Assembly (NCBI GenBank): GCA_019873685.1
Contig: JAIOAT010000009.1
Coordinates: forward strand, 1 to 64,000
Origin: Chloroflexota bacterium
Lineage (GTDB): Bacteria > Chloroflexota > Anaerolineae > Aggregatilineales > Ch27
Reading direction: 5' to 3'
Length of the DNA: 64,000 bases
Shown here: positions 934 through 17,465 of the stretch, one piece after another
Numbering within the stretch: the first letter of the stretch is position 1
Layout of the letters: each line of letters begins with the position of its first letter
Notes under the pieces: generated by a model
What the model was told of the DNA's origin: nothing
Databases searched by the model: none
What the model saw: only the letters and a program-made list of their open reading frames with translations
Position numbers and translations under genes: made by a program

Positions 934-2097
934 TCAGCCATACACGCAGCGGTGCGCCTCATCGACAAAGGCGTGCAGCAGGGCCGGGTCAGCGTCGAAG
1001 AAGTGGTCAGAAGGCGAAAGGATGTAACCGCCGCCACCACCCGCCGCCTCAAAGCAGCGCCGGACTTCCGCCCGTGTCTGCTCCGGTGTGCAGCCAACGA
1101 AGAAGTGGAACTGGTCAAAGCCGCCGATCATGCACACCCGGTCGCCGATGCGCCGCTTAGCCTCGGCCAGGTCGACATCCGCGCCCATATCGCGCGGGGT
1201 GAAGGTTTCCATGGCGTCGGGGTTCATAGCCGCGATCTGCTCCAGGATGGGCATCATCCCGCCGCAGGTGTGGTAGACGATGCGCTGGCCGACCCGGTGC
1301 GCTTCCTCGATCAGCGGCGCGTCATAGGGTGCAACGAATTCATCGAACATGCGCGGGGAGATCACGGTCGTGGAGGCCGCGCCACCGCCCAGCTCCAGCA
1401 GGTCATAGCGCGCCCCGGCCAGCGAGCGGATAAAGATCCGCTTGCGTTCCTGCAGGACTTTGAGCACGGTATGCACCCAGGCCGGGTCATCGTAGGCGTA
1501 CAGGATGGCCTCCTGTGTCCCGACCATGCAGGTGAAGTCCTGCCAGCAACCGGGCTGGCCGTACACATCAAAACAGGGAATGTGGGCGCGCACCAGCCCT
1601 CGCTCGCCGAACTCATCGGCGACGCGGTTGACCTCGTCGACATCACAGAGCGGCGCGGGCGCGTACTCAGCGATCAGGTCGATGTCGGACTTCTGCTTGA
1701 TGACGTACTCGGTCAGCCAGGAAGTCTGCTCGTTGCTCTGCAGGGTGCAGGTCAGCTTGCCCTTGGGCGTCGTGATCGTATAACGTTTGGTCGGGTACTG
1801 CTGGCCGGGGATGTCTTCCTCCGTGATGCGCCAGTGGTCAGATTGGACGGACGCATCCTCCCAGGTTTCGCCGCTGCGCCGCACCAGATAATCGCCCTTG
1901 CTGGTATCCGCCTTGAAGGGCAGCACCCAGGTGATGGCGTCAAAGCCAAAGTAGTCAAAAAACGCCTGCGTAGACATGCCACCCATGTACTTCTTGAGGA
2001 AGTACTCCATCACGTGGTGGGTGGTCACCGGCAGACGATCCGGCACGCCCCTCTGCAGGGCGGTCAGCATCCGTTGTTTGGAGGTCATGGCGCTCAT
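934..2097 (-). CDS. URO-D superfamily protein (MtaA/CmuA-like, HxC zinc motif)
   Basis: 387 residues. The fold family is uroporphyrinogen decarboxylase / cobalamin methyltransferase, recognised from the N-terminal RMLTALQRGVPDRLPV segment and a C-terminal YHTCGG motif (His276, Cys278). The motif matches the HxC zinc site of MtaA/CmuA-type methyltransferases rather than true HemE. A later Cys near residue 326 could be the third ligand. Its start overlaps the stop of the upstream GH35 gene by 4 bases (ATGA), so it is translationally coupled to a glycosidase, and a GH65 gene follows. No haem or corrinoid genes are nearby. Methyl transfer on O-methylated sugars is a speculative role; the reaction is unknown. 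It is one of three URO-D-like proteins in the first 13 kb. Confidence 0.8.
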   Translation of the reverse strand: MSAMTSKQRMLTALQRGVPDRLPVTTHHVMEYFLKKYMGGMSTQAFFDYFGFDAITWVLPFKADTSKGDYLVRRSGETWEDASVQSDHWRITEEDIPGQQYPTKRYTITTPKGKLTCTLQSNEQTSWLTEYVIKQKSDIDLIAEYAPAPLCDVDEVNRVADEFGERGLVRAHIPCFDVYGQPGCWQDFTCMVGTQEAILYAYDDPAWVHTVLKVLQERKRIFIRSLAGARYDLLELGGGAASTTVISPRMFDEFVAPYDAPLIEEAHRVGQRIVYHTCGGMMPILEQIAAMNPDAMETFTPRDMGADVDLAEAKRRIGDRVCMIGGFDQFHFFVGCTPEQTRAEVRRCFEAAGGGGGYILSPSDHFFDADPALLHAFVDEAHRCVYG

Positions 2098-4190
2098 GCG
2101 GGTATCTCCTTCTCCAGCCTGACGACGGCGCCACCGCGGGCAGGCAGGTGCACTAGTAGCGTTTGCGGATTGCGGGGATCCATCAGCAGGGCTTCCCCGC
2201 CGAGCAGGTCTCTGGCGCGCCAGGGGCCGCCGGTGAACGGCGCAGGATGCAGGTGCACGAGGGCGTCGCGTTCCGCATCGCTGACATTAAGGGCGATCAG
2301 GATCCGCGCCTCACCCGCCCGGAACAGCGCGGTGACGACATTCGGCGTGTGCGCCCGGCTGTACAGCGGCACATCCAGCCAGCGGTGCAACGCCGCCAGT
2401 AGTTCCGGCCCCGGCGCCAGGCCCAGGCAGATGATGCTGCCCGCCCCGCGCCGCTGGCGGTAACCGACGATGTAGGACGTCCCCACCAGCAGGTTGATGT
2501 GCAGGGCCAGTTCATCCCCCGCAGGCGGCGGTTCCGGGATGCGCTCAGCGACGATCGGCTCGCCGGGCACATCCTCGAAGGCGAAGAAAGCCGGGCTGCT
2601 GAGCGTCACCGCCTCGCCATCCCCCAGGCGGACGGCCAGCCGTTGCGGATACCCGGCCCCCAGGATGCGCTCCGGCAGGCGCAGACCCAGCCGGTTCAGC
2701 GGGGAAAGCGTCTCATCCCGCACAGGCAAATCCTGGAAGAACACCAGCGTCCCGCCGCTCTCGACATAGGCCAGCAGGCGCTCCTGTGCGGCGGCGCTCA
2801 GCCAGTCGCCCCCGCCGTAAAGCAACAACGGCCGGGCAACCTGGCCGGTCGCCACGTCATAGCAGTCGTAGTCGATGTCTGCGTCCAGCAGCGCATCCAG
2901 CAGGCGGTCGCTCCCATCGATCAGGCGACCATCTCCGGCCTGGCGGCGGGCAGTCTGATGCAGCGGGTCGACGGTGACCGCCGTGGCGCATAGCTTCTCC
3001 AGCGCGGGCGGATCGATTTCCCGGAAGAGGGCGACCACGCGCCGGAAGACCTCAAAGAGTTCCGGGCGTGGGTGGCCCAGCTCGTTGATCGGGCTGAGCA
3101 GCCAGTTGTCGCGGTTAGCCAGCATATACCAGTTCCAGCCAGCCGCCCCGCCCAGCACGGCGGCGCAGGCCGTCAACAGGTAATGGCCGGGTGTGATCGG
3201 CCCGGTATAGTCCAGCCCACCGTGCCAGATGCCAGCCTCGAATTCCGGGATGTATGGCAGCGCGGAATAGCTCCGCGTATAACGCAGGTAATGCAGGAAC
3301 TGGCGCAATTCCTCCGGACGCAGGCGGAAGCCATCCGCCGGGTAGAGGTCCGGCCCGGCCAGGTCGGCCAGATCCTCCAGTTCCCGCCAGTTCTGGATGC
3401 CGAAATTGGTGTACGTATTGACCAGGATCGGCACGTCGACGCCCAGGGCGCGGTACCCCTCGACCGTCCAGCGAACGGCCTCAGCGGTGCACCACATGCG
3501 AAAGCGGCAGAAGTCCAGGTAGCGGTTGAGGTAGCCCCGACCGGGGACGACTGGTTGCAGGACGGCCCGCGCCTCCTCAAAGCGCTGCAGGTCGGCCTCC
3601 CAGGCGGCGTTGAGCGCCGCCAGATCGCCTCCATAGCGCTCCCGCAGGTAGTCCTGGAACAGGCCCGGAGTCTGCCCCAGCCCAAGCTGGCCCTCGTAGA
3701 TGTGCGGCCAGGGGTCCGGTTCGTTTTCCGCCTGGAACAGGATGACCGGCCCGCCGCGCGTCGCCAGGTAAGGCAGGATGACCCCGGTCACCGCCGCCAT
3801 GTATTCGCTGGCCGCCGCCCGGTACTCCGGATGCAGGCGGTGGTAGCGGGCGGCGCGGTCAGGCAGGCCGCCGTTGCGCCACTCGCTGTAGATGTACGGG
3901 CCGGGGCGGATCAGCAACCACAGCCCTTCCGCCGCCACCAGCTCCAGAAAGGCGACCAGATTGCGCTCCGGCGCTGTTTCCCCGCGGAAGTCAAAGCGCC
4001 CCGGCGCAACCTCGTGATGCTCCCAGCAGACGTAAGTAGCCACGCCTTCCAGGCCCATCTCCCGCACACGGCGCAGGACTTCCGGCCAGAGGCGCGGATT
4101 CATCCGCCAGTAATGCACCTCACCACTGAGCAGAGCGTGGGGCTGCCCGCCCACCCATACACGCCTTGCGTCAATGCGTACCTGTGGCAT
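2094..4190 (-). CDS. GH35-like beta-galactosidase
   Basis: 698 residues. The N-terminal TIM barrel has the GH35 hallmarks SGEVHYWRMNP, GVATYVCWEHHE and LIRPGPYIYSEW. The general acid/base is predicted as Glu157 in FQAENEPD and the nucleophile as Glu316 in YIPEFEAG. The C-terminal half (about 400-698) is predicted beta-rich and includes a ThuA/amidotransferase-like stretch (LLLYGGGDWLSAAAQERLL). No signal peptide is visible, so it probably works on imported oligosaccharides. It lies 11 bases after the GH2 gene and overlaps the URO-D gene by 4 bases. Family members remove terminal beta-galactose or related sugars; the exact specificity is not predictable here. Confidence 0.85.
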   Translation of the reverse strand: MPQVRIDARRVWVGGQPHALLSGEVHYWRMNPRLWPEVLRRVREMGLEGVATYVCWEHHEVAPGRFDFRGETAPERNLVAFLELVAAEGLWLLIRPGPYIYSEWRNGGLPDRAARYHRLHPEYRAAASEYMAAVTGVILPYLATRGGPVILFQAENEPDPWPHIYEGQLGLGQTPGLFQDYLRERYGGDLAALNAAWEADLQRFEEARAVLQPVVPGRGYLNRYLDFCRFRMWCTAEAVRWTVEGYRALGVDVPILVNTYTNFGIQNWRELEDLADLAGPDLYPADGFRLRPEELRQFLHYLRYTRSYSALPYIPEFEAGIWHGGLDYTGPITPGHYLLTACAAVLGGAAGWNWYMLANRDNWLLSPINELGHPRPELFEVFRRVVALFREIDPPALEKLCATAVTVDPLHQTARRQAGDGRLIDGSDRLLDALLDADIDYDCYDVATGQVARPLLLYGGGDWLSAAAQERLLAYVESGGTLVFFQDLPVRDETLSPLNRLGLRLPERILGAGYPQRLAVRLGDGEAVTLSSPAFFAFEDVPGEPIVAERIPEPPPAGDELALHINLLVGTSYIVGYRQRRGAGSIICLGLAPGPELLAALHRWLDVPLYSRAHTPNVVTALFRAGEARILIALNVSDAERDALVHLHPAPFTGGPWRARDLLGGEALLMDPRNPQTLLVHLPARGGAVVRLEKEIPA

Positions 4191-4201
4191 TGCTCCCCCG
4201 A

Positions 4202-6889
4202 TCAGGCTTCGCCATGCGCCAGATACTGCAGCAGGTTAAGCAGCAGCCAGCGCCCGGCCAGATGCGCCCGCAGACCGACCGGCTGATCACCCAGCCCGCC
4301 CTGAAAGCGCAGAGTCGTCGCCGCCAGGCGTCCCGCACCCAGCCGCATTTCCAGCAGGTAATCCGTCACGTCAAACTGGCGGGCGTCCAGCCGACGCAGC
4401 GGCGTGCGGACTTCTGCTGCGTCCGGCAGGACCTCGGCCAGCCGCGCCGTATCCAGCGCCCGGTCAGTCGCCAGCCCGTAGAACTGCAGATCCAGCACGC
4501 CATCATGGGGCATAGCTGCCAGCACTGGATGATCCCCGATCAGCCCGATCCCCTCGCGCCAGAAGGGAACGGCCCGCGCTGGCAGTGGACGGTCGCCGTG
4601 CTGAATCAGCAGGACGCGCCCGCCACCCCGCGCAAAGCTCAGGACATCGTCCGTCAGCACGTTAGTGATCAGGACGCGCAGACCGGCGTCCGGCGTCTCC
4701 ACGCGCCGGGCGGCCTCCAGCAGGTCATCCAGCCCGCTTAGAGCGCCATTCGGATCGAGCACGCCCAGTCCTGCCGGCCACGCGCTGACCACCGGGAAGA
4801 TCCACAGTGACCAGCTATTGCTGATCGCCGGTCGACCTTGCGGCGTGAATGACGCCTGCAGGCGCAGCGTTACCGCGCGATCCGACGGGGGCGCGGCAAA
4901 AACCGCCCGCCCGATGCTCCGGGGACGCCCGCCGGTCAGCGGGCCGCTGACCGCCGCCTCCCCGCCGCCGATGCGCCTCCCTGCCGCATCGACGACCTCC
5001 CAGACCAGCCGACCGCCCGGCAACGACGGCCCGGCGTGGGCGAGGACGATCTCCAGCCCGGCGGCTTGCCCGGCGGGGAAGCTGTACGGCTCAAACGGCG
5101 CGGGACGGTCGCCGCCGTGCGTCCAGCGCCGCGCCCGCCCCCGCCCCAGCAGCAGCACACTATCCGCGTTGAACTGGCGGAAGGCCTCCGGGTCATACTT
5201 GCTGCGACCCAGGTCGTCGAACATCGAGGAGGAGGCCAGCGGCGTATCGCGGATGCTGGTCACCACGTAACCGCCCATGCCCGCCCGCGCCCGAACTTTC
5301 TCCAGAATCGTCTTGCGGACGACAAACGACTGCCGCCGCGACAGGCGCATCAGCGCCGCGTCACCCAGCCCCAGGTCAAGCTTCTGCATCCGCTCGCGCT
5401 GGGCCGGGTAGCCGACGAAAGTCCGGGGATGCAGGGGATTCCACTCGGTGAACCACCAGGGCAATTCCCCGCCGAACGCCTGGGCGATCTCGTTCAGGTC
5501 GCGGTAGTCGTCGGCGTCGCAGAATTCGCCGAAGATCCAGGGGCGCGGCGGCCGCCAGTCCCGGCTGAAATGGTCAACCAGCGGCTCAAAGAAGTGCAGA
5601 TCGCAGTAGAAGTGATAGTCGTTGAAATCGGCGAAGTCAAAAGCCAGCCCGCCGTAAGCCTCGCCGGAGCCGCTGTTGTCGCAAACAAGCACGCCCCCGG
5701 TTGCGCCGCGCACAATCCCATCCAGCCGCCCCAGCAGTTCGGCGTCAACGCTATGCCCCAGTTCGCAGCCCAGGCTGTACAGGATCACCGACGGATGGTG
5801 GTGAACCGCGTCGAGAATCTCGGCGTATTCGCGGGGGGCCTGCTCCCGCAGGCGGGGCGTCACCTCCGGCAGCCACATCGGCAGTTCCAGCCACAGGAAC
5901 ATGCCCAGTTCATCCGCCAGGTCAAAATACAGGCGCGACGGGACGAACAGACACAGCTTGATCAGGTTGTAACCCAGGGCGCGGACGCGGGCGAACTCGG
6001 CGCGGATCGTCGCCTCGTCCGGCGCGGGGCACAGCACTTCCGGGTACCAGCCCCAGTTGAGCACCCCGCGCAGGCAGATCGGCTGCCCGTTGAAGAGCAG
6101 CTGCTCACCCTGGCGCGTCAGGGCGCGGAAGCCAACGCGCCGTTCGGCAGCGGCGAGAGTCGTCCCCCGCCCGTCTTCCAGTCGGACGGCCACCGTGTAC
6201 CGCGCCGGGTTGGCCGGCTCCCAGCGCATCGGATCCGGCACGACCACGCTGGCGCTCAGCTGCCCTTCCACGGGTGAACCGGCCCACACCGCGACCACCC
6301 GCCCATCAGGATGAGTCACCTGGACGCTGGCCCGCAGACCGGCCTCCACGTCCGCGCCTGCAACCGCGCCGGTGACCCGGATGCGCCCGCTTTCCATCTC
6401 GGTCAGCACGCGCAGATCGCTCAGCGCCGGGCCGGGGAAGGCCACCAGCCGCGCCGATCCCCACACCCCGCCGAACATCATGACGACATCCGGCAGGAAG
6501 CCGGCCAGTGATTCCCGCAGCGGAAAGCGCTCGCCCTGCTTGTACACGGTCAGCCGGATCGTGTTCGTTGCGCCGAAGCGCAGCGCAGCGGTCACGTCCA
6601 GGGCAAACGGTGCCCACGAACCGCTATGCCTCCCGACCGGGACGCCGTTGATCGTCGCCTCGACATCGTAACTGACTGCCTCAAACTGAAGCTGCACCCG
6701 CCGCCCGGCCCACGCCGCCGGAACGACGATCTCCCGCTCGTACACCGCCGGGCCGTCAACCCGCCGGGGATAGCCCTGCGCCTCCCAACAGCCAGGCACC
6801 CGGATCGCGCCCTGTTGCCCGGCCAGGCTGAAGCGCCATTCGCCATCCAGCGGCAAGGTCTCGGCCAGCGTATTGTGCCACACGCTCAT
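4202..6889 (-). CDS. GH2 family beta-glycosidase
   Basis: 895 residues, typical of GH2. The order is an N-terminal jelly-roll sugar-binding domain (about 1-155; GEWRFSL, VPGCWEAQGYP, YEREIVVP), an immunoglobulin-like domain (155-255), a TIM barrel (about 260-560) and a long C-terminal extension. The barrel has ICLRGVLNWGWYPEVL and a HHPSVILYSLGCELG strand with predicted acid/base Glu376. The predicted nucleophile is Glu455 in IFGEFCD. The residue before the acid/base is Cys375, where clan GH-A enzymes almost always carry Asn. No signal peptide is seen. It is the second gene of the leftward operon, 47 bases after the TIM-barrel glycosidase gene. Beta-galactosidase, glucuronidase and mannosidase activities are all possible. 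Confidence 0.87.
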   Translation of the reverse strand: MSVWHNTLAETLPLDGEWRFSLAGQQGAIRVPGCWEAQGYPRRVDGPAVYEREIVVPAAWAGRRVQLQFEAVSYDVEATINGVPVGRHSGSWAPFALDVTAALRFGATNTIRLTVYKQGERFPLRESLAGFLPDVVMMFGGVWGSARLVAFPGPALSDLRVLTEMESGRIRVTGAVAGADVEAGLRASVQVTHPDGRVVAVWAGSPVEGQLSASVVVPDPMRWEPANPARYTVAVRLEDGRGTTLAAAERRVGFRALTRQGEQLLFNGQPICLRGVLNWGWYPEVLCPAPDEATIRAEFARVRALGYNLIKLCLFVPSRLYFDLADELGMFLWLELPMWLPEVTPRLREQAPREYAEILDAVHHHPSVILYSLGCELGHSVDAELLGRLDGIVRGATGGVLVCDNSGSGEAYGGLAFDFADFNDYHFYCDLHFFEPLVDHFSRDWRPPRPWIFGEFCDADDYRDLNEIAQAFGGELPWWFTEWNPLHPRTFVGYPAQRERMQKLDLGLGDAALMRLSRRQSFVVRKTILEKVRARAGMGGYVVTSIRDTPLASSSMFDDLGRSKYDPEAFRQFNADSVLLLGRGRARRWTHGGDRPAPFEPYSFPAGQAAGLEIVLAHAGPSLPGGRLVWEVVDAAGRRIGGGEAAVSGPLTGGRPRSIGRAVFAAPPSDRAVTLRLQASFTPQGRPAISNSWSLWIFPVVSAWPAGLGVLDPNGALSGLDDLLEAARRVETPDAGLRVLITNVLTDDVLSFARGGGRVLLIQHGDRPLPARAVPFWREGIGLIGDHPVLAAMPHDGVLDLQFYGLATDRALDTARLAEVLPDAAEVRTPLRRLDARQFDVTDYLLEMRLGAGRLAATTLRFQGGLGDQPVGLRAHLAGRWLLLNLLQYLAHGEA

Positions 6890-6936
6890 CGCGCCACATC
6901 TCCCTTTGCAGTCTCCGGCGTGCTCAAGGCGCCGGT

Positions 6937-8532
6937 CTAGCTCCTTGCCGCGGCTTGGGCGATCACCGCCTCGATTTCCGGTTGCGCTGCTTCCAGCGTG
7001 CCGTCAACAAATGTCAGCGTCGGGATGTACGTCTCCGTCTGCGGCAGGCGGACGTACGGGCTGCAGCCGGCCTCATGCACGCCGGTGCTGTTGCGGGAGG
7101 GATCGCCGTCGCAGATGTGGCCGATCAACCTGGCGTAACGCCCGACCCATTCCGGCACCTGCCGCCAGGTAGCCGTCTGCTGGAACACCGGCAGGATGTC
7201 CAGCAGGCCATCGTACCAGTCTTCCCCGGCCACCAGCAGCTCGGGATGCCCGGCCCGCAGCCGGGCGACAAGCTGGCGCAGTCCCTCGCGCATGTTGAAG
7301 TCCGGGTCGTTGACCCAGACCTCGGTGCAATCCAAGAAGACGCCATCAAAGCCAAAGCGCTCGACCAGCGTCCGAATCTGGCGGGTCAGTTCAGTCTGCC
7401 AGGCGGGTGCGCCGGGATGCAGCCAGGCCTGCCAGCCGGTGTCATGCGTGCGCTTGAGGTCCCAGTCTGGCTGGTTACCCCAGAAGGTGTTGCGGGTGGC
7501 CGATTTCATGTAGGAGGACGGGCCGAAGGTATGGAAGTTCGGCGCCCAGGCATTGGCGCAGTTGACGCCAAACATCGGCATGACATGCACACCCAGCGCC
7601 CGCGCCCCTTCGCACAGGCGGGCAAAGCCATCCCCGCCGCCCAGCCGTGGCTCCGGGCGGTAATCGCCATATTGCCAGTAGTAGCGGCCCTCCCAGCCCG
7701 GCAGGTAGGCCAGCACATGGCGGCCATCGATTCGTTCGGCCACAAAGCGGATGATGTTCAGGGCCTGCGCATAGGTGTTGAAGATATAACCCGACCAGTG
7801 CATCTGGTGGATGGTCAGGCACAGGCGGATATCCCGCGCCCAGCGAGGGACATCCCTGCGCTGTTCCCAGGGCGCCAGTCCCAGTTCGGCTTCGTTAAAG
7901 GCCAGCTGCTCCCCACGGAAGGCGGCTACATCGACGCCCCGATCCAGCACCCACAGCGGCACTTCGATCTGAGTATCGAACCAGCGGGCGTCTTCTTCAT
8001 GCAGGCACTCAACCGTATAGGTGCCCGCCAGCGGCCCGAAGGTCTCCCGGCACACGGCGAATCGCTTGGCGCGGGCCTGGGGATCTTCGCTGCGTGCACC
8101 GATGATCGTCCCGTCCGGCAGCAGGCCGCAGAACAGGGGCAGCCGCAGCGGGTTCGGATACGCGTCGATCAGCCCGCCCTCAGGCAGATCGCGCGGGTGA
8201 TCCAGCATGTCCAGCGGGCGCAGGGCAGGCAGGTTGCGGACCAGCACCTTGACCGCCCGGATCTTGTGCAGGGCGGTCGCCCGGATATTCAGCAACAGCC
8301 GGTCGCCCTCCCCGCGCCGGGCGACCAGTTCCAGCGACCCCGGCGCGTGTTGCTGCTGCCCGGCCCAGCTCAGGCGGGAACAAGCCAGCCGCCAGCCGTC
8401 GTCAGTCGGCTCAAGCGTGGTATGGGCCGGGTCCAGGCCGTAGAGGTTTTCCAGGGTAATCACCTGAAAGGAAAGCTGCCAGCCTCCGAGTTCAAAGACC
8501 GGATCGCGAAGATCGAAACTATAGAGATGCAT
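6937..8532 (-). CDS. Predicted TIM-barrel glycosidase (DUF6259/GH36-like)
   Basis: 531 residues from the ATG at 8532, chosen because AAAGG lies upstream and the 26 residues before it look like non-coding translation. The N-terminal third is beta-rich. The C-terminal part is a barrel with YLPGWEGRYYWQYGDY, a conserved-looking HVMPMFGVNCANAW strand, FGFDGVFLDCTEVW (a likely catalytic Asp/Glu strand) and ELLVAGEDWYD. This architecture resembles uncharacterised bacterial glycosidases annotated DUF6259, distantly related to GH36-type enzymes. The substrate is unknown. It is the first gene of the leftward glycosidase operon and follows a predicted promoter with operator sites. No signal peptide is visible. 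Confidence 0.65.
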   Translation of the reverse strand: MHLYSFDLRDPVFELGGWQLSFQVITLENLYGLDPAHTTLEPTDDGWRLACSRLSWAGQQQHAPGSLELVARRGEGDRLLLNIRATALHKIRAVKVLVRNLPALRPLDMLDHPRDLPEGGLIDAYPNPLRLPLFCGLLPDGTIIGARSEDPQARAKRFAVCRETFGPLAGTYTVECLHEEDARWFDTQIEVPLWVLDRGVDVAAFRGEQLAFNEAELGLAPWEQRRDVPRWARDIRLCLTIHQMHWSGYIFNTYAQALNIIRFVAERIDGRHVLAYLPGWEGRYYWQYGDYRPEPRLGGGDGFARLCEGARALGVHVMPMFGVNCANAWAPNFHTFGPSSYMKSATRNTFWGNQPDWDLKRTHDTGWQAWLHPGAPAWQTELTRQIRTLVERFGFDGVFLDCTEVWVNDPDFNMREGLRQLVARLRAGHPELLVAGEDWYDGLLDILPVFQQTATWRQVPEWVGRYARLIGHICDGDPSRNSTGVHEAGCSPYVRLPQTETYIPTLTFVDGTLEAAQPEIEAVIAQAAARS

Positions 8533-8611
8533 GGTTTTCACGCCTTTGACAGGCCGACCTGGCCAGCCCGGTCGGCAGGGCCGGGTAACGCCTGGCGATC
8601 CACCCGGCATG

Positions 8612-8637
8612 AATAGACAAACCCGGACAATTTGTCC
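8612..8637. promoter_or_regulatory. Predicted operator pair upstream of the glycosidase operon
   Basis: AATAGACAAA (8612-8621) is followed by GGACAATTTGTCC (8625-8637), which has perfect 6-base arms. The TAGACAAA half-site recurs at the other promoters of this locus. The pair lies just downstream of the predicted start point of the leftward promoter, a position suited to repression. The AraR-like regulator encoded at 21884-22984 is the best candidate ligand. The site is visible in the sequence; binding is inferred. Confidence 0.55.
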
Positions 8638-8654
8638 AGCCTGCTGGCCAATCC

Positions 8655-8682
8655 ACTATAACGCGAAGCGGGCGCGGGTCAA
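8655..8682 (-). promoter_or_regulatory. Predicted sigma-70 promoter of the leftward glycosidase operon
   Basis: On the minus strand, TTGACC (8682-8677) and TATAGT (8660-8655) are separated by 16 bases. It faces the 8532-to-1 operon, and the operator pair at 8612-8637 lies immediately downstream. Confidence 0.5.
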
Positions 8683-8731
8683 AGCAGCGCCTATCTGAAC
8701 CGCCCCGCCACAGGATGAGCCAGCAGGCCGA

Positions 8732-8740
8732 TCTAGACAA
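8732..8740. promoter_or_regulatory. Additional TCTAGACAA operator-like site
   Basis: TCTAGACAA followed by ATT lies 50 bases upstream of the predicted -35 element and just after the stop of the lyxose isomerase gene. It carries the same TAGACAAA core as the other sites and could be an auxiliary operator. Confidence 0.4.
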
Positions 8741-8758
8741 ATTGGCCCAACCGTTACC

Positions 8759-9445
8759 CTAGCCGCGATAGTAAGCTTCGTAGTCGTTGACCAGCAGGTA
8801 CAGCGGCGGCTCGTCCTCTTCAATCGCCGGGAAGCGACCGATCGGCTCGTAGAAGCGGTTGTCGGTGGCGTCATCGTTGACGGAAGACACCTCGCCCACC
8901 AGCACCCGGTTACCTTCCGCCCAGAACTGGTGGTAGCAGTACGGCTCCAGGGTGATGCTTTCCCCCGGCTCCAGGGCCACCGTACCGCCCGCCTTGACCG
9001 TCCGGGGCACAGCGTCGATCATCACCGTGACGTCATCGTCCCGCAGTTCCCCCTCCGGCGTGCTGTTATAGAGCTGGATCAACAGCCTGCCGCCGCCGCG
9101 GTTGATAATGTCTTCCGTCTTGAGCCAGTGGAAGTGCAACGGCGTGAGCTGCCCCTCGCCGACGATCAGCAGCTTTTCCGCGTAGACCTTGCCCCTGCCG
9201 GTCTTGAGGTTCTCCGGCGCGCCGTTGCGGATGGTAAACAGGAACAGACCCTTATGGGCGTAGTCGCCCAGACCGAAATCCGTAATATCCCAGCCCAGCC
9301 GCCGGGCCACAATCTCGCGGGCTTCCGGCCCCTTGCGCCGCCAGTCCTCCGGCGACCAGTAGGCAAACGGCGGCAGGTAAAAGCCGTGCGCCTTGATGAA
9401 GGCGTCAGCTTCACGTATGATGGTGTTGATTTCAGACCGCTTCAT
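8759..9445 (-). CDS. D-lyxose/D-mannose ketol-isomerase family (cupin)
   Basis: 228 residues from the ATG at 9445, which has AGGAGGAG upstream; a longer frame to 9658 lacks support. The protein begins MKRSEINTIIREADAFIKAHGF and contains PPFAYWSPEDW, both typical of cupin-fold D-lyxose isomerases. The cupin metal ligands are visible as TPLHFHWLKTEDIINRGGG (two His plus a Glu) and a later His in EPYCYHQFW. The family interconverts D-lyxose/D-xylulose and D-mannose/D-fructose, which would fit an alpha-mannosidase locus by feeding mannose into fructose. It is divergent from the neighbouring URO-D-like gene with only 59 bases between starts, and may be co-transcribed with the glycosidase operon. 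Confidence 0.85.
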   Translation of the reverse strand: MKRSEINTIIREADAFIKAHGFYLPPFAYWSPEDWRRKGPEAREIVARRLGWDITDFGLGDYAHKGLFLFTIRNGAPENLKTGRGKVYAEKLLIVGEGQLTPLHFHWLKTEDIINRGGGRLLIQLYNSTPEGELRDDDVTVMIDAVPRTVKAGGTVALEPGESITLEPYCYHQFWAEGNRVLVGEVSSVNDDATDNRFYEPIGRFPAIEEDEPPLYLLVNDYEAYYRG

Positions 9446-9504
9446 GCGCGCTTCTCCTCCTGTTGAGCGGGTACCGCCCGCTACACTGATGATTGGAAAG
9501 CCCG

Positions 9505-10644
9505 ATGGCCAACAGCACAAACACCTTCTGGAAGGCGGACTGGGACCGCGTCCGCGAGCACTACATCGCCTGGTGGCGGCGCGAGGGCCTGGTGCTGCAT
9601 GTTCTGGCCCCCCGCGATTCCAGCCCGGAGCGCGATACGCGCAATCCCCAGGCCCCATTTTACTACCTGATGGGCGGCCTGGACCCCACCGCTGTCTACC
9701 CAGATGATGCCGCCCTGCGCGACGCCTGGCTCAACGCTGAGCGCCGGGCGCGCCTGGCCGAACGCTACCTGCGCGGCATCTACTTCGGTGGCGATGCCTT
9801 CCCCTTCTTTGATACCAATATCGGCCCCGGCAACCTGGCGACCTTCCTCGGCGCGGAGCCGTCCTTCGCCCCGGACACGGTCTGGTATGCGCCGTGCATT
9901 ACTGATCCCGACCGCCATCCACCGCTGCGCTTCGACCCGCAGAACCCCTGGTTTCTGCACCAGAAGGCTGTGGCGGAGGCCGGGGTCGCCGTCAGCGCCG
10001 GGCGGTTTCTGGTCAGCATGCCCGACCTGATCGAGAATCTGGACACGCTGGCTTCCCTGCGGGAAACGCAGCAGCTGATGCTGGATCTGGTCGAGCGCCC
10101 GGCGTTTGTCAAAGAGCGTCTGGCGGAGATCAACCAGGCTTACTTCCAGGCATTCCAGGCGCTGTACGAAATCGTTCAGACGCCCTGGGGCGGCAACGTG
10201 TATTCCGCCTTCAGCATCTGGGGGCCGGGACGCACGGCCAAAGTCCAGTGCGACGCCTGTGTCATGATCTCCCCGGAGATGTTCGCCGAGTTCGTCGTCC
10301 CCTGCCTGGCCGAGCAATGCGCCTGGCTGGACTACAGCATGTACCACCTGGATGGCACGCAGGCTTTCCGCCATCTGGACGCGCTGCTGAGCATCGAGCC
10401 GCTGGACGCCATCGAATGGACGCCGCAGGTCAGCGCACCTCAGGGCGGTTCGCCGGAATGGTACGGCCTGTATCGGCGCATCCTGGAGGCCGGCAAGAGC
10501 ATCCAGGCGATCAACGTTCAGCCGGATGAAGTCCTGCCCCTGCTGGACGCCATCGGCACGCGCGGCGTTTTCCTGATGGTCAACGCCACCAGCGAGGCCG
10601 AGGCGCGCGCCCTGGTGGAAGCGGTGGAAGCCCGCCGATCCTGA
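9505..10644 (+). CDS. URO-D/methyltransferase-like barrel protein lacking the zinc Cys
   Basis: 379 residues from the ATG at 9505 (GGAAAG upstream; a TTG at 9493 is possible). The fold resembles the URO-D superfamily: VWYAPCITDP, an MPDLIENLDTLASLRE segment, a SIWGPGRTAKVQCDACVMISPEMF segment and a C-terminal YHLDGTQAFRHLDALL. At the position where the two sister proteins have HxC, this one has His-Leu-Asp, so a classical zinc thiolate site is absent. It may bind a sugar or carboxylate instead. It stands between the lyxose isomerase gene (divergent) and the ferritin-like gene (convergent). The enzymatic role is unknown. Confidence 0.65.
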   Translation: MANSTNTFWKADWDRVREHYIAWWRREGLVLHVLAPRDSSPERDTRNPQAPFYYLMGGLDPTAVYPDDAALRDAWLNAERRARLAERYLRGIYFGGDAFPFFDTNIGPGNLATFLGAEPSFAPDTVWYAPCITDPDRHPPLRFDPQNPWFLHQKAVAEAGVAVSAGRFLVSMPDLIENLDTLASLRETQQLMLDLVERPAFVKERLAEINQAYFQAFQALYEIVQTPWGGNVYSAFSIWGPGRTAKVQCDACVMISPEMFAEFVVPCLAEQCAWLDYSMYHLDGTQAFRHLDALLSIEPLDAIEWTPQVSAPQGGSPEWYGLYRRILEAGKSIQAINVQPDEVLPLLDAIGTRGVFLMVNATSEAEARALVEAVEARRS

Positions 10645-10667
10645 CGGGACCGACGGGCAGTTACGAA

Positions 10668-11882
10668 CTAGTACTCGCCCGTAGCCATCCGCTTCTGCAT
10701 CTTGACCGGCGTGTTTTCCAGCAGCCACGCTTCTGTGCGCGCCTTGATCGCCTCCGGGGTCTCGTTGTAGCCGTAAGTCTGCAACAGGACAGGCGTCCAC
10801 TTTTGCCCCCAGCGGATGTGGAAGTTTTCGTCGCTCCAGTCGTAGCTGACTGCAGCGGCGGAGACTTCGTCGGCGATCTTCTCCCAGTGTTCGCGGTTAG
10901 CCACCTTCTCCGGCATGCCGTTCGGCTCGATCACGGTGGTCAGCAGGGCATACTGGTCAACCGCCGGCAGGGTCATCATGACGTTGTAGATCTGGACGAC
11001 CTGCGGCACTTCCGAAACCTGCAGGCCGAGCTGCTGAACGCGCAGCTGACCGAGCTGGCTGTGCCGCACCTCGTCCCACTGGTGACGGGCCACATTGTAG
11101 TGGAATTCCCAGGGCATCTCCGGCGTCATCCACAGGATGGAAGCCAGCGTCTCAGCGGCGGTCATCTCGTTGAGGTAGTGCTTGAAGCGCCACAGGCGAT
11201 GCGCTTCCGGCTCGGCCTGGCGATCTGGCTCAACATCCGTATCAGGGTCAAAGATCGGCCAGCCGGGCATCCGCTGGCATGTCTTCCAGGGCAGCAGCAG
11301 GGCATGCCCCGCCGGACGGGCGGGCGGCTCCTGGCGCGGTTCCGCCCCGGTTACACCACCGTCAACAGCCAGCAAACCGGCGATGTACGCCTGCCATGCC
11401 TCCCAGCCGGGGTAACGGGCCGCCACCTCCGGGAAGAACGCCTCCGCCCAGGCGACCTGCTTTTCCGTCGTATCGATCAGTTTCTCGCGGATGATCTTGA
11501 CCGTCGGGTTATCGAACTCCTCCCAGGTCAGGCCGGTATGGGCGCGGTAGGCGGCCAGCAGCGCCTTCTTGACCACCAGGTAGGCGGTGGCGATCAGGTC
11601 GGCGGTATGCGCGGCGCAGTCCAGTTCGCGGGCCAGGGTATGCAACCCATCGCTGATGCCGCGCTCAAAGTTGTGGGCGCGCAGCTCACGCAGGCGACCA
11701 TGCAACGCTTCAGCGGCGTCGGCGCTCTCCCAGATGTGCAGGCCAATCAGGTTCTTGGCTTCCCATTCCGGCACGCCGGCCAGCCAGCCGGCCAGCGTCC
11801 GCGTCAGGCTGCGTTCCAGAAAGGCGTACCGCTTCAATACCAGTACATTCTGCTCAATAGTCAGGCGGGATTGGGCTTCCAT
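10668..11882 (-). CDS. Ferritin-like diiron protein of unknown function
   Basis: 404 residues from the ATG at 11882, chosen because GGAGGAA lies upstream and the preceding 16 codons have no ribosome site. Two ExxH motifs sit on predicted helices: Glu58-His61 in AAEALH and Glu271-His274 in DEVRH. Additional Glu residues at 23 and 239/244 lie about 30-35 residues before each. This E...ExxH...E...ExxH spacing is the ligand pattern of four-helix diiron proteins, so an oxygenase, oxidase or oxygen-scavenging role is plausible. I do not recognise the specific family. It is transcribed divergently from the URO-D/GH38/ABC operon across a promoter region with two predicted operators, suggesting shared sugar-responsive control. 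Confidence 0.6.
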   Translation of the reverse strand: MEAQSRLTIEQNVLVLKRYAFLERSLTRTLAGWLAGVPEWEAKNLIGLHIWESADAAEALHGRLRELRAHNFERGISDGLHTLARELDCAAHTADLIATAYLVVKKALLAAYRAHTGLTWEEFDNPTVKIIREKLIDTTEKQVAWAEAFFPEVAARYPGWEAWQAYIAGLLAVDGGVTGAEPRQEPPARPAGHALLLPWKTCQRMPGWPIFDPDTDVEPDRQAEPEAHRLWRFKHYLNEMTAAETLASILWMTPEMPWEFHYNVARHQWDEVRHSQLGQLRVQQLGLQVSEVPQVVQIYNVMMTLPAVDQYALLTTVIEPNGMPEKVANREHWEKIADEVSAAAVSYDWSDENFHIRWGQKWTPVLLQTYGYNETPEAIKARTEAWLLENTPVKMQKRMATGEY

Positions 11883-11920
11883 GAACAATTTCCTCCAACA
11901 ACCCTCAATCTTCCGTATGT

Positions 11921-11952
11921 GTATAGACAAACCAGCAGGATGTGATTATACT
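11921..11952 (+). promoter_or_regulatory. Predicted promoter with operator over the -35
   Basis: TAGACA (11924-11929) and TATACT (11947-11952) are 17 bases apart and face the URO-D/GH38/ABC operon that begins at 12123. The -35 hexamer is embedded in GTATAGACAAA, the same motif found at the other promoters of the locus, so a bound repressor would block polymerase. Confidence 0.6.
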
Positions 11953-12070
11953 GTGATTGTAGCTTATGCGGCTTGCCGGATCAATCACGCCCTTCATCCA
12001 CCCTTCCGGCCTTCAAATGCTGCCCGGGAATCCGTTTCAACGCGCCAGACACACCTGCCCACCGTCGCCA

Positions 12071-12081
12071 TGTCTAGACAA
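12071..12081. promoter_or_regulatory. Palindromic operator TGTCTAGACA
   Basis: A perfect 10-base palindrome (12071-12080) followed by AT lies 42 bases before the URO-D start codon. It is the clearest full version of the locus motif and resembles the TTGT-N4-ACAA pattern of AraR-type GntR regulators. Confidence 0.6.
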
Positions 12082-12122
12082 TCCGGCAGCCGCCTGTTGA
12101 CCGCACCACCCTGGAGTGACTG

Positions 12123-13277
12123 ATGGCCGAAGTGATTGAGATTGGCGTGTCGGTGGAAGAACTGGCCGCCCGCAAAGAGCGGGTCACCAAAGCCAAGCGC
12201 TTTGAGGAACCGGACCGTGTGCCGGTCATCCCCGCAATCGCCCACCGCTTCATGGTCCCCAAAGTGGGCGTTCGCTTCCGCGACTATTACCGCGACCCCG
12301 AAACCATGCTGCGCACTCAGATTCTGGGCCAGAAATGGCTGATGGAAAATGTGCGCACCGACGCCTACAGCATCACCGGGGCGTGGGTCGGCGCCTGGAC
12401 GGACTTCCAGAACACCTTCGAGGCTGGCAGCCTGGGCTGTGAGGTCATCTTCCCCGACGACGACATCCCCTGGGTGGGGCCGGGCTGGGTCAAGACGGAA
12501 GAAGACCTGGCCCGCCTGGAAGCGATGGACTTTGTCCACAGTGGCATCAACGCCCGCCAGATCGCCTACCGCCGGGCGATGATGGCCGTCGCCGAGCGCT
12601 ACCCCGTCCGCTTCCTGGGCGGGGAGGTGTTTTACCCCGGCGCTAACCCGGCCCTGACTCACACGTCCGACGGGCCATTCGGGATAGCCGGCGATCTGAT
12701 GGGCCAGACCGAGTTGTTCACCGCCTGCTACGAACGCCCTGACTTCGTGCGCGAACTGCTGCGCATCATCACCGATAAGCTGATCGAGTACCTGGACTTC
12801 TGCTGGGAAGAAGAACAGCTCCCGGCCCGTGACTTCGCCTGGACGGACGACCTGGCGGTCAATCTCTCCGCGCAGATGTACCGCGACCTCGTCCTGCCGG
12901 AGGAAAAGCGGCTGCGTTTCCATTTTGACGGCTGGCTTTCCCTGCACATGTGTGGCAAGACCGACCATCTGCTGGAAATCTTCCGCGATGACCTGGCGAT
13001 CCATGAGCTACAGGGCTTCGGCTACCAGGTCAACCTGGATCGCATCGCCGAGGTGATGGGCGGGCGTGTTGTCCTGATCGGCAACATCGACCCGATGCTG
13101 ATCCACAGTGGCACGCCGGAGCAGGTTCGGGAAGCGACCCGTATCGCTATTGAAAAGCTGGCCCCCTACCGGGGCTATATCGTCCAGGATGGCAACAACA
13201 TCCCGCCCGGTTCGCCGCTGGAGAACATCAACGCCATGACCGAAGCCGCCGAACTGTACGGGCGTTACCACGCTTAG
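12123..13277 (+). CDS. URO-D superfamily protein (MtaA/CmuA-like, HxC zinc motif)
   Basis: 384 residues. The N-terminal KAKRFEEPDRVPVIPAIAHRF matches the start of URO-D-type methyltransferases, and the C-terminal half has LHMCGKTDHLLEIF (His275, Cys277) followed by VVLIGNIDP and GYIVQDGNNIPPGSP. The HxC pair and the later GN(I/V)DP strand are the features of MtaA/CmuA/MtbA-like proteins that bind zinc and transfer methyl groups; true HemE lacks them. It opens the rightward operon, 49 bases before the alpha-mannosidase gene. No corrinoid protein or MT-I partner is nearby, so methyl transfer is a hypothesis only. A decarboxylase or a sugar-acting enzyme remains possible. Confidence 0.8.
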   Translation: MAEVIEIGVSVEELAARKERVTKAKRFEEPDRVPVIPAIAHRFMVPKVGVRFRDYYRDPETMLRTQILGQKWLMENVRTDAYSITGAWVGAWTDFQNTFEAGSLGCEVIFPDDDIPWVGPGWVKTEEDLARLEAMDFVHSGINARQIAYRRAMMAVAERYPVRFLGGEVFYPGANPALTHTSDGPFGIAGDLMGQTELFTACYERPDFVRELLRIITDKLIEYLDFCWEEEQLPARDFAWTDDLAVNLSAQMYRDLVLPEEKRLRFHFDGWLSLHMCGKTDHLLEIFRDDLAIHELQGFGYQVNLDRIAEVMGGRVVLIGNIDPMLIHSGTPEQVREATRIAIEKLAPYRGYIVQDGNNIPPGSPLENINAMTEAAELYGRYHA

Positions 13278-13326: not shown

Positions 13327-16113
13327 ATGCCCACCATGAGCAGTAAGCGTCGCACGGCAACCATTGTGCCTCACACACACTGGGATCGCGCCTGGTACGT
13401 CACCTTCCAGGAATTCCGCGCCCGCCTGGTCCGCCTGATTGACCGGTTGATTGACCTGCTGGAGCAGAACCCGGACTATCGTTTCTTCATGCTGGACGGC
13501 CAGACTTCCATCCTGGAGGACTACCTGGAAGTGCGCCCGCAGCGCGCCGATGTTCTGCAGCGCCTGGCGCGGGAGGGACGGATCAGCGTAGGGCCGTGGT
13601 ATGTCCTCCCGGACGAATACCTGGTCAGCCCGGAAGCGCTCATCCGCAACCTGATGATCGGGCACCGGATGGGCGCCACCTACGGCGGGGTGATGAAGGT
13701 CGGCTATGTCCCGGATGGCTTCGGGCATATCGCCCAGCTCCCCCAGATCTTCCGCGGCTTCGGCATCGATTCGGCGATCTTCTGGCGCGGCGTCGGCGCG
13801 GAAGCCGACCACATCGGCGCCGAATTTGAGTGGGTCGCCAGGGATGGCTCCCGTGTGCTGGGCATCTGGATGCCCTGGGGCTACCACAACCTGTCTAACG
13901 TCGGCTACCCGATCCGCTGGGGCGACACCTCGCAGATGGCCTTTGACTGGGAGATGGCCCTCCAGCAGGTCGGGCAGGCGCTGGAGAAGCTGGAAAGATT
14001 TTGCCATACTCCCGCCCGTCTGTTGATGAACGGCATCGATCACGCCGAAGCTGAGCCGCGCATCCCGGAACTGGTCGCCCGCGCCCGCGCCGCCTTCCCG
14101 GATGTTGACTTCCGCATGGGCACGCTCAGCGACTTTCTGCGCGATGTACGCGACTCCGGCATCCCGCTGCCCGAATTCAGCGGCGAATTCCGCTGGGGGC
14201 GCTACGCCGAAATCCTGCAGGGCGTCTATTCCACCCGCATCATCCTCAAGCAACGCAACCACCGCGTCGAAACGCTGCTGGAGCGTTATGCCGAGCCGCT
14301 GACCGCCTTCGCCCGGCTGGCCGGGGCCAATCCGCCCGCCGGGACACAGGACCTGCTGTGGACTGCCTGGCGCTGGCTGCTCAAGAATCACCCCCATGAT
14401 GACATCTACGGCAGCGGGATTGACCAGGTGCACGACGAAATGCTCTACCGCTTTGACCAGGCCGAGCAAATCGGGAACATCCTGGTGCGGGATAGCCTGC
14501 GTCTGCTGGCCCGCCACGCCGATTTTTCCGCCCAGACGGGCACGCCGGTGCTGGTCTACAACCCCCTCAACTGGACACGGGCGGAAGTCGCCGAGGGGAC
14601 GATTGACTTCGACTTTGACGACCCGACAGCGGAGCGCTTCACCCTGTACAATGCTCAGGGCCAGCCGATCCCCTGCCAGGTGCTCAGCCGCGAAGATGCC
14701 GTCTGGCTGGAAACGCTCAAGCCCAACCGCAAGCGGCGCGTGCATGTCGCCTTCCGGGTGGAAGCGCCGCCCTGTGGCTATACCACCGTCTACGCCCGTC
14801 CCGGCGGCCAGACGACTCCCCTGCCCGGCACCCTCTGGCGCGTTGATCCTGACGGCGCGGAGAACGCTTTCCTGGCCTTCCGCATCGCCGCCGACGGCAG
14901 CCTGACCATCCGCGACCGGGCTACCGGGATGGTTTACGCCGGTCTGCATCGCTTCTATGATGTGGACGACGCCGGAGACGAGTACAGCTATTGCCCGTGC
15001 CCCAATAGCCAGGTCTACAGCACCGCCGGGCAACCCGCCCGGGTCGAGCTGGTGCTGGATAGCCCGCTGCTGGCCCGCTTCCGTGTCACCCAGACGTTGC
15101 GCCTGCCCGCCACCCTGAGCGCCGATCGGCAGCACCGCTCAGAGACACTGGTAGACCTGCCGATCGTCTCCCTGCTGACCTTCTACCGCGACCAGCCGGG
15201 CCTGTACATTGAGACGCGCGTCACCAACACCGCCCGCGACCACAAACTGACGGTCACCTTCCCCACGCCGCTGAACCCGGAACGCGCTTATGTTGACGCC
15301 GCCTTCCAGGTCAGCGCCCGCGAGATCGCCCTGCCGCCCTCGGAGGGCTGGCTGGAAGACCCCACTCCGCTCATGCACCAGCGGGCCTTCACCGACCTGA
15401 GCGATGGCGGGCGCGGGCTGGCCGTGCTCAACCGCGGCCTGCCCTCGGTGGAAGTCGAGCGCACCGCCGAAGGGACGCAGATCGCGCTGACGCTGCTGCG
15501 GGCCGTCGGCTGGCTCTCCCGCGATGACCTCAGCACGCGGCGCGTCGCCGCCGGGCCGCTGCTGCCGACGCCCGGCGCACAGTGCCCCGGCAACCACGTC
15601 TTTGAGTACGCCATTGTGCCCCATAGCGGCGACTGGACGGCCGTGGCACGTCTTGCCGCCGCCTATACCGCCCCGCTATACATTGCTCGCGCTGACACGC
15701 ACGAGGGCATGGAACTCAAGGAAATGCCTTTCATCGGCGTTGACCTGGACTGGTACAACCGGGTGGTCAAGCCAATCCCCTGGCCGCGCGACGGCCAGAA
15801 CCCGGATACGCTCAGCTTCCTGGCCCTGGAACCCGCGCCGCTGATCATCAGCGCGATCCGGGCCAGCGCCGATGGCGAAGGGCTGGTGGTGCGCTTCTAT
15901 CACCCCGGCGACGCCCCCCTGACCGCCCGGCTGACCAGCCAGCGTGAGCTGGCGACCGTTTACCGCCTGAACCTCAACGAGGAGCGCCAGGCCGAAGTTA
16001 TTCCGGCGGAGGGGCCGGATGCCTGGCAGCTCACCGATAACGGCCATACCGTGCTGATCCCTGTGGTGGGCGGCCAGATCGTCACCTGTGAGTTGCGCCC
16101 CGCCCGGGGTTAG
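13327..16113 (+). CDS. GH38 alpha-mannosidase
   Basis: 928 residues, with AGGAG before the ATG at 13327. The N-terminal barrel shows VPHTHWDRAWY (His and Asp20 zinc ligands) and GYVPDGFGHIAQLPQ (predicted nucleophile Asp130), both diagnostic for GH38. A helical middle domain contains LLKNHPHDDIYGSGIDQVHDEM (zinc His), and the rest is a large beta-rich C-terminal region. The family removes alpha-mannose from N-glycan-type or mannan oligosaccharides; no signal peptide is visible, so the work is cytoplasmic. It is followed 89 bases later by an ABC sugar-binding protein gene, so import and demannosylation are probably co-expressed. The family call is firm; the linkage is not known. Confidence 0.93.
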   Translation: MPTMSSKRRTATIVPHTHWDRAWYVTFQEFRARLVRLIDRLIDLLEQNPDYRFFMLDGQTSILEDYLEVRPQRADVLQRLAREGRISVGPWYVLPDEYLVSPEALIRNLMIGHRMGATYGGVMKVGYVPDGFGHIAQLPQIFRGFGIDSAIFWRGVGAEADHIGAEFEWVARDGSRVLGIWMPWGYHNLSNVGYPIRWGDTSQMAFDWEMALQQVGQALEKLERFCHTPARLLMNGIDHAEAEPRIPELVARARAAFPDVDFRMGTLSDFLRDVRDSGIPLPEFSGEFRWGRYAEILQGVYSTRIILKQRNHRVETLLERYAEPLTAFARLAGANPPAGTQDLLWTAWRWLLKNHPHDDIYGSGIDQVHDEMLYRFDQAEQIGNILVRDSLRLLARHADFSAQTGTPVLVYNPLNWTRAEVAEGTIDFDFDDPTAERFTLYNAQGQPIPCQVLSREDAVWLETLKPNRKRRVHVAFRVEAPPCGYTTVYARPGGQTTPLPGTLWRVDPDGAENAFLAFRIAADGSLTIRDRATGMVYAGLHRFYDVDDAGDEYSYCPCPNSQVYSTAGQPARVELVLDSPLLARFRVTQTLRLPATLSADRQHRSETLVDLPIVSLLTFYRDQPGLYIETRVTNTARDHKLTVTFPTPLNPERAYVDAAFQVSAREIALPPSEGWLEDPTPLMHQRAFTDLSDGGRGLAVLNRGLPSVEVERTAEGTQIALTLLRAVGWLSRDDLSTRRVAAGPLLPTPGAQCPGNHVFEYAIVPHSGDWTAVARLAAAYTAPLYIARADTHEGMELKEMPFIGVDLDWYNRVVKPIPWPRDGQNPDTLSFLALEPAPLIISAIRASADGEGLVVRFYHPGDAPLTARLTSQRELATVYRLNLNEERQAEVIPAEGPDAWQLTDNGHTVLIPVVGGQIVTCELRPARG

Positions 16114-16202: not shown

Positions 16203-17465
16203 ATGTCTGTCAAAGTTTCTCGCCGTGAATTTCTTAAGACCAGTGGTCTGGCCGCTGCCGCCGTCGCCACCTCCAAGTTCCCCATGCCGGGGATCATCCA
16301 TCGTCGCCAGCTGAACACCGTGGTGCTGAAGATCCAGTCCTTTGCCCATGACGCAATCAAGGCCGTGTTGCCCGATTTTGAGGCGGCCACCGGCCTGACC
16401 GTGCAGCTGGAGCCAGGACTTTCCTCCGGCCCTGAGCACATGCAGGAAGTCAGCACCGCCTACGCCGCCGGCGATAGCCCCTGGGATGTCGTCAGCGATC
16501 CGGATGAGGGCACCGTTGCCTTTGCCCGCGCGGGCTGGCTGATGCCCCTCGATGACGTGATCCCGCAGGAAACCCTGGATGACTTCCCGCAGGGCATGCG
16601 CGACGCCTTCCCCATCTGGCATGGCTTCGAGGGTGCGCTGTATCGCGTCCCGCATGAGTTCGCCGTGGGATACTTCTTCTATCGCAAGGACCTGCTCGGC
16701 GAGCCGCCCAAGACCTGGGAGGAAGTGGCTGAGATCGGTATGCAGGTGACCGACGCCGCCAACGGGGTCTGGGCCACCACCGATGCGATCATCCGCGGCG
16801 GCCTGACCTGGGTCTATGTGGCCTACCTGGCCAGCCAGACGGGTGGTAACGTCTTTGAGATGGACGCTGGCACGGCGCATGCGGCGCACTTCCTGTATGA
16901 CATGCTCAATGTCTACAAGATCATGCCGCCCGACGCGCTCAACATGAACTATGACCAGCAGAACCAGCTCTACATGAGCGACAAGGTCATGTTCATGCGC
17001 CAGTGGCCGTTCTTCCAGAGCGTAGCCGAGGGCAACACCGAATGGTTCAGCCCGGAGAAGGTCGCCATCGCCCTGCCGCCCGCCGGCCCCGCCGGGACGG
17101 GTAGCTGGTGGGGTGGCTGGGGCTTCAGCGTCCCGGCCCTGGCCCCCAATCCTGACGGCGCCAAGGAACTGATCAAGTTCCTGACCTCCAACGAGGTTGC
17201 CCCCAAGCTGGCTCAGGGCCAGAGCTGGTTCATCATGCCGCGTACTTCCATCCTCAACGCGATGGCCGGCACCGGCAACCCGATCGTGGACGCCATGGGC
17301 CTCTACGCCGAGAACAATGTGATCAAGCCGCGGCCGTTCCATGCTCGCGCTGCCGAGGCGCAGTATGCCGTCGACGACGCCATGCTGCAGTACCTGACCA
17401 AGCAGGCCACCCTGCAGGAAGCGCTCGCCTTCGGCAAGCAACTGCTGGCCGACCTGAGCGCCTAG
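16203..17465 (+). CDS. ABC sugar-binding protein (CUT1 family, Tat signal)
   Basis: 420 residues. The N-terminus VSRREFLKTSGLAAAAVATS carries a twin-arginine (SRREFLK) export signal. The mature part is a family 1 solute-binding protein (SFAHDAIKAVLPDFEAATGLTV, GDSPWDVVSDPDEG, PHEFAVGYFFYRKDLL, GGWGFSVPA). AAGGAGGAG precedes the start. Tat export suggests the protein folds in the cytoplasm first; the other three binding proteins here have ordinary Sec-type signals. It should deliver mannose-containing or similar oligosaccharides to the permeases encoded downstream. A strong stem-loop separates it from them. Confidence 0.9.
   Translation: MSVKVSRREFLKTSGLAAAAVATSKFPMPGIIHRRQLNTVVLKIQSFAHDAIKAVLPDFEAATGLTVQLEPGLSSGPEHMQEVSTAYAAGDSPWDVVSDPDEGTVAFARAGWLMPLDDVIPQETLDDFPQGMRDAFPIWHGFEGALYRVPHEFAVGYFFYRKDLLGEPPKTWEEVAEIGMQVTDAANGVWATTDAIIRGGLTWVYVAYLASQTGGNVFEMDAGTAHAAHFLYDMLNVYKIMPPDALNMNYDQQNQLYMSDKVMFMRQWPFFQSVAEGNTEWFSPEKVAIALPPAGPAGTGSWWGGWGFSVPALAPNPDGAKELIKFLTSNEVAPKLAQGQSWFIMPRTSILNAMAGTGNPIVDAMGLYAENNVIKPRPFHARAAEAQYAVDDAMLQYLTKQATLQEALAFGKQLLADLSA

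Follow-up and report, generated by a model that had tools for sequence, protein, structure and literature searches.

A gene cassette of URO-D-fold proteins and glycoside hydrolases as a candidate corrinoid-dependent demethylation module for O-methylated sugars

Two URO-D superfamily proteins encoded in a glycoside-degradation locus of a Chloroflexota bacterium, URO1 and URO3, together with a further one found at related loci elsewhere (URO4), are on balance probably corrinoid-dependent enzymes that demethylate a methylated sugar or glycoside. Methyl transfer by this module is well supported by its gene context as read from sequence; from the same context we infer the direction of demethylation, an O-methyl sugar as the substrate, a division of labour among the URO-D proteins, corrinoid genes acting in trans in the organism studied and a role for the ferritin-like DUF455 proteins. 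We see about an even chance that the module represents an undescribed, corrinoid-dependent pathway, spread horizontally and present in at least five phyla, by which several URO-D-fold methyltransferases would jointly demethylate O-methylated sugars.

The 64,000 nucleotides analysed (the window) are the start of a 97.5-kb contig from a 4.1-Mb genome that is 97% complete. Gene calling relied on a codon-usage script of our own, gene labels came from BLAST comparison with a small set of references, and gene contexts were pieced together region by region. The three URO-D-type genes described in the initial annotation, URO1 (934-2097, minus strand), URO2 (9505-10644, plus strand) and URO3 (12123-13277, plus strand), are all intact open reading frames. 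URO1 belongs to a tight minus-strand run made up of a GH65 gene cut off by the contig start, URO1 itself, a GH35/GH42-like glycosidase (2094-4190; Pfam PF01301, E=3e-40) whose gene overlaps URO1 by 4 bp, a GH2 glycosidase (4202-6889; Pfam GH2 domains) and a DUF6259/GHL10-like glycosidase (6937-8610), the last a sub-threshold Pfam match that is kept beside URO1, URO3 and GH38 in other genomes. An equally tight plus-strand run leads from URO3 to a GH38 alpha-mannosidase-type hydrolase (13327-16113; PF01074, E=1e-40) that is kept beside URO3 or URO1 elsewhere, an ABC sugar-binding protein with a Tat signal (16203-17465; Pfam SBP_bac_1) and two ABC permeases (17566-18492, conserved together with the cassette, and 18505-19353, Pfam BPD_transp_1). 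Downstream on the minus strand lies a GntR/LacI-type regulator (21884-22984; Pfam GntR and Peripla_BP_3) that is a cassette member in other genomes. URO2 is alone on the plus strand between two minus-strand genes, a D-lyxose/D-mannose isomerase (8759-9445; PF07385, E=1e-103), a 180-aa relative of which directly adjoins URO3 in other phyla, and the ferritin-like DUF455a (10668-11882; PF04305) with a complete diiron signature (E/ExxH + E/ExxH). The proposal that the three genes are operonic with glycosidases and a sugar importer therefore holds for the URO1 and URO3 runs and fails for URO2, both of whose flanks are on the opposite strand. Elsewhere in the window a formate dehydrogenase alpha gene (TIGR01591; 57671-59782, plus strand) appears as two open reading frames of the same frame, interrupted by a TGA at 58127 that stands directly before a His (CARL-TGA-HSS), the place at which FdhF is known to carry selenocysteine; its product is likely a selenoprotein, and the downstream RNA folded no better than shuffles.

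URO1 and URO3 match the Pfam URO-D family (PF01208; E=1.2e-25 and E=3e-36 respectively), as does URO4, and URO3 is assigned to the superfamily by fold as well. Both proteins of the window carry the HxC zinc motif previously noted in two of the three, as H276-T-C278 in URO1 and H275-M-C277 in URO3, and it is invariant among their orthologues, which for URO1 are 19 further proteins of the window's order at 64% identity or more. By profile URO3 is nearest to MtaA, which is also its best PDB fold match (E=1.9e-12, from a structural model of moderate confidence, pLDDT 74). With MtaA and MtbA (MT2, methylcobamide:CoM methyltransferases) these two proteins share the HxC of the zinc site, but they score 60-83 bits, far below the curated MtaA, MtbA and CmuA cut-offs of 235-244, and the third Cys of the His-x-Cys...Cys site is missing, its position in MtaA being taken by Asp364 in URO1 and by Ser or Asn in URO3 (sequence alignment). 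HemE has the same barrel and belongs to the same Pfam family, yet the HemE model (TIGR01464, cut-off 303 bits) gave 35 bits for URO3, 20 for URO1 and at best 48 in the whole genome; no protein of this genome passed the curated cut-off, whereas six well-known control genomes were each positive. The concern that these proteins might prove to be ordinary HemE is thereby dismissed. URO2 has no Pfam or NCBIfam family match and no relative by sequence in the PDB, and fold comparison was used instead: the 18 best PDB fold matches of its AlphaFold model (pLDDT 87) are all UROD or MtaA. In a profile comparison with URO1 it reaches 92.8% probability, and it carries HLDG (HxD) in place of HxC. By its model URO2 is a distant URO-D-fold protein, so that all three proteins are indeed URO-D-type barrels, URO2 by profile and fold only. 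In the genome as a whole there are eleven URO-D matches, spread over about ten places, about eight of them beyond the genes of the window, and several of these other URO-D genes adjoin ABC sugar permeases or glycosidases. One locus (L117; G000:C15, 6654-14073) holds a second URO-D system with a sugar importer, an HTC-bearing URO-D, RACo and a BHMT-like gene; at another (L124; G000:C3, 5142-14049) a URO-D gene is flanked by GH35 and GH38-like genes and stands downstream of genes for ABC permeases.

Of 121 genomes belonging to the window's order, 16 encode URO3 and 19 encode URO1, in each case at high identity, and 14 genomes have both. The cassette that recurs in the order comprises URO1, URO3, DUF455a, GH38, the importer genes, the GntR/LacI regulator and DUF6259. 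URO1 and URO3 are adjacent in five genomes (G086, G091, G111, G114 and G115) and their genes overlap in some. Elsewhere the cassette includes further members, namely URO4, GH31, a second ferritin-like protein (DUF455b), a Fer2 ferredoxin, a xylose-isomerase-like barrel and a right-handed beta-helix protein. When the genomes of GTDB were scanned, 37 close relatives of URO3 (70-88% identity) and one distant match came up in further genomes, so that the phyla known to have URO3 number at least five: Chloroflexota, Aminicenantes, Planctomycetota, Bacteroidota/Ignavibacteriota and Calditrichota. The gene order URO1-URO3-URO4-GH31 recurs between phyla; at 40 URO3 loci, URO4 lies on the same strand within 2.5 kb in 20, URO1 in 15 and GH31, which scores above the alpha-xylosidase cut-off, in 13. 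Two Planctomycetes are nested among Aminicenantes groups in the URO3 tree, which points to horizontal transfer of the gene. Pairwise identities of URO1 and URO3 are correlated (rho 0.61 over 18 loci, the pairs not being independent). The expected association of URO-D, glycosidase and ferritin-like genes is hence conserved for URO1 and URO3 with glycoside hydrolases, while DUF455a is a cassette member in Chloroflexota only. Orthologues of URO2 lie in unrelated neighbourhoods, and URO2 was rejected as a member; the idea of a single module of three proteins had to be given up, URO2 being a separate family outside the cassette.

The URO-D genes had been described as far from corrinoid genes. This is true of the window, where neither a corrinoid protein gene nor a cobalamin riboswitch or other RNA (Rfam) was found, but not of orthologous loci elsewhere. 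A search for a corrinoid partner yielded stand-alone MtgC/MtaC-like proteins with B12-binding domains, whose genes are linked in cis to the module in several phyla and, within the window's order, in four genomes. In Ignavibacteriota, Bacteroidota and Calditrichota the corrinoid protein is encoded in the URO3 gene run, often with a reactivase; it precedes URO3 in the same run at L148, L155, L156, L157 and L165, and four of these five loci have a Met_synt_B12-like reactivase. The plus-strand run of Melioribacteraceae locus L155 reads corrinoid protein, Met_synt_B12-like protein, homocysteine S-methyltransferase, PfkB fragment, RbsD, lyxose-isomerase-like cupin, URO1, URO3, URO4 and GH31, and the opposite strand encodes another URO-D, a GH2 and a GH38. 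Within the window's order a corrinoid gene adjoins the cassette regulator in G086, G091, G111 and G114, the last with the order GH38-regulator-corrinoid-RACo-homocysteine methyltransferase-like-DUF1638, and the corrinoid gene of G011 is directly next to a URO1 paralogue. Candidate activators are RACo, whose gene adjoins the cassette of G111 and that of G114, and the Met_synt_B12-like protein of Ignavibacteriota. A second methyltransferase is represented by the PF02574 protein of L155, which has a homologue in G114, and by a PF00809 protein next to corrinoid and RACo genes in G035. No corrinoid gene was seen within the examined flanks of URO3 in Aminicenantes. In G108 a relative of URO2 (33% identity) is encoded between a corrinoid protein and RACo, at a locus (L230; C53, 6413-13865) that encodes a URO-D, the corrinoid protein, the URO2-like protein, RACo, a homocysteine methyltransferase, a DUF1638-like protein and another URO-D; judged by its genes this is a corrinoid system of compact form, in which the URO-D-type proteins are of three different kinds.

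Co-occurrence agrees with linkage. The corrinoid protein is present in 16/16 URO3 genomes and 18/19 URO1 genomes of the order against 43/121 overall (Fisher 7e-9, a value that ignores relatedness), and in all of the 11 genera that URO3 spans; a free corrinoid protein was not found in G065, which has URO1. Outside the order it occurs free in 19 of 20 URO3 genomes and as a fragment in the 20th. An unrelated FGGY sugar kinase of the window taken as a control showed no such relation to the corrinoid protein (19/55 vs 24/66, p=0.85), and chance co-occurrence arising from large sugar-rich genomes is thus unsupported. The window's own genome has an MtaC-like protein, two RACo proteins and a BHMT-like protein in trans, the gene of the last adjoining RACo and another URO-D with sugar-importer genes.

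A complete corrinoid system consists of methyltransferase I, a corrinoid protein, an activator and methyltransferase II. Since the last three are separate genes here, the URO-D proteins most likely fill the role of methyltransferase I. The initial annotation held that known roles of the family cannot explain the locus, a view that is overturned by the UroD-type corrinoid O-demethylases MtvB, OdmB, VdmB and MtoB and the dehalogenase CdmB, already described, which establish methyltransferase I of the UroD superfamily for aryl methyl ethers and haloalkanes (PMC13222342). Because CdmB functions without zinc (PMC13222342), methyl transfer is compatible with a replaced third zinc ligand. The module resembles these systems in its URO-D-fold methyltransferase I candidates, stand-alone MtgC/MtaC-like corrinoid protein, RACo and second methyltransferase. 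It differs from them in its setting among glycoside-degradation genes, its two or three tandem URO-D proteins and its acceptor gene, which is homocysteine-methyltransferase-like (PF02574) or pterin-binding; the sequence similarity between CdmB and the URO-D proteins of the module is very low. The best reading by analogy is that the module is a carbohydrate variant of the known UroD-type O-demethylase systems. The URO proteins could also stand on the methyl-accepting side, as their third zinc ligand is replaced and HxC is best known from the thiol-methylating MtaA and MtbA. The mlp (MtaA-like) clusters of anaerobic bacteria, by their description, likewise have MtaA-type homologues in conserved clusters, but unlike the module they come with no mention of sugar in the text of PMC10418091. 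We found nothing relevant in the open-access literature on URO-D proteins with sugars or glycoside hydrolases or on corrinoid sugar demethylation.

In the pathway that we propose the ABC transporter would import a methylated oligosaccharide, which the GH38, GH31, GH35 and GH2 enzymes would cut. The URO-D proteins, acting as methyltransferase I, would then transfer the methyl group from the sugar so released onto Co(I) of the MtgC/MtaC-like corrinoid protein, kept reduced by RACo or the MetH-activation-like protein, and the homocysteine-methyltransferase-like or pterin-binding methyltransferase would move the methyl into C1 metabolism. The demethylated sugar may be handed to RbsD, the lyxose-type isomerase and the PfkB kinase. 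Demethylation of O-methylated sugars had been guessed from the window, and the conserved association and the corrinoid partner now give it strong support from context; the substrate itself is inferred from the neighbours, that is the ABC sugar importer, GH31 (alpha-xylosidase), GH38, RbsD, lyxose isomerase and PfkB.

These same neighbours bear on the alternative that the methyl group sits on an aglycone, such as that of a methoxylated phenol glycoside, which the glycosidases would free and the URO-D proteins would O-demethylate in the manner of MtvB, OdmB and VdmB. UroD-superfamily O-demethylases are known to act on aryl methyl ethers (PMC13222342) and the corrinoid context would fit equally well, but RbsD, lyxose isomerase, PfkB, the GH31 alpha-xylosidase and GH38 are sugar enzymes and no aromatic-degradation gene was seen among the annotated genes of the loci, whose annotation is partial, so that we hold this to be unlikely. 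Slightly less likely still is another reaction on a sugar acid, such as decarboxylation, retro-aldol cleavage or isomerisation, with an incidental corrinoid link. The URO-D barrel does support decarboxylation in HemE, at least three URO-D genes accompany sugar genes and the zinc site has lost its third ligand; against this stand the co-occurrence in every URO3 genome of the order (16/16), the loci of several phyla at which corrinoid, RACo and methyltransferase genes are directly linked to the URO-D genes, and the nearness of URO3 to MtaA by profile and fold.

At six Chloroflexota loci (L087, L088, L089, L096, L115 and L151) two DUF455 paralogues and a 90-aa [2Fe-2S] ferredoxin lie beside URO3. 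The diiron motif of DUF455a is invariant in 17 proteins, DUF455a and DUF455b both keep the full E/ExxH x2 site, and the sequences suggest that the pair is a diiron oxidase or oxygenase of an undescribed kind for which the ferredoxin is the electron donor. Demethylation could then be oxidative, with these proteins hydroxylating the O-methyl group and the URO-D proteins handling the C1 unit or another step. DUF455 proteins and ferredoxin near URO3 were however seen only in the Chloroflexota form; in Aminicenantes, Ignavibacteriota and Calditrichota URO1, URO3 and URO4 persist with no DUF455 near URO3, and the window itself is without DUF455b and ferredoxin, which makes this a decidedly improbable explanation. 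Least probable of all, to the point of being hard to credit, is that the URO proteins are inactive relatives or regulators. They do have no characterised orthologue and a divergent zinc site, but URO3 has more than 100 invariant positions at its 70-88% identity across phyla, and gene order with enzymes is tight and conserved. With the motifs invariant as well, the suspicion of dead pseudoenzymes voiced earlier appears unlikely.

For many genes annotated as “uroporphyrinogen decarboxylase family” no role is known, and the genome studied here has about ten of them and no true HemE. The module gives one well-defined set of URO-D proteins a testable role, that of taking methyl caps off sugars by a B12-type route. 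The enzymatic route described for methylated sugars is an oxidative one, with a P450 acting on 6-O-methylgalactose. If our reading is true, an oxygen-independent corrinoid route would tie the breakdown of polysaccharides to C1 metabolism under anoxic conditions, and methylated polysaccharides would be opened as a source of both carbon and C1 units.
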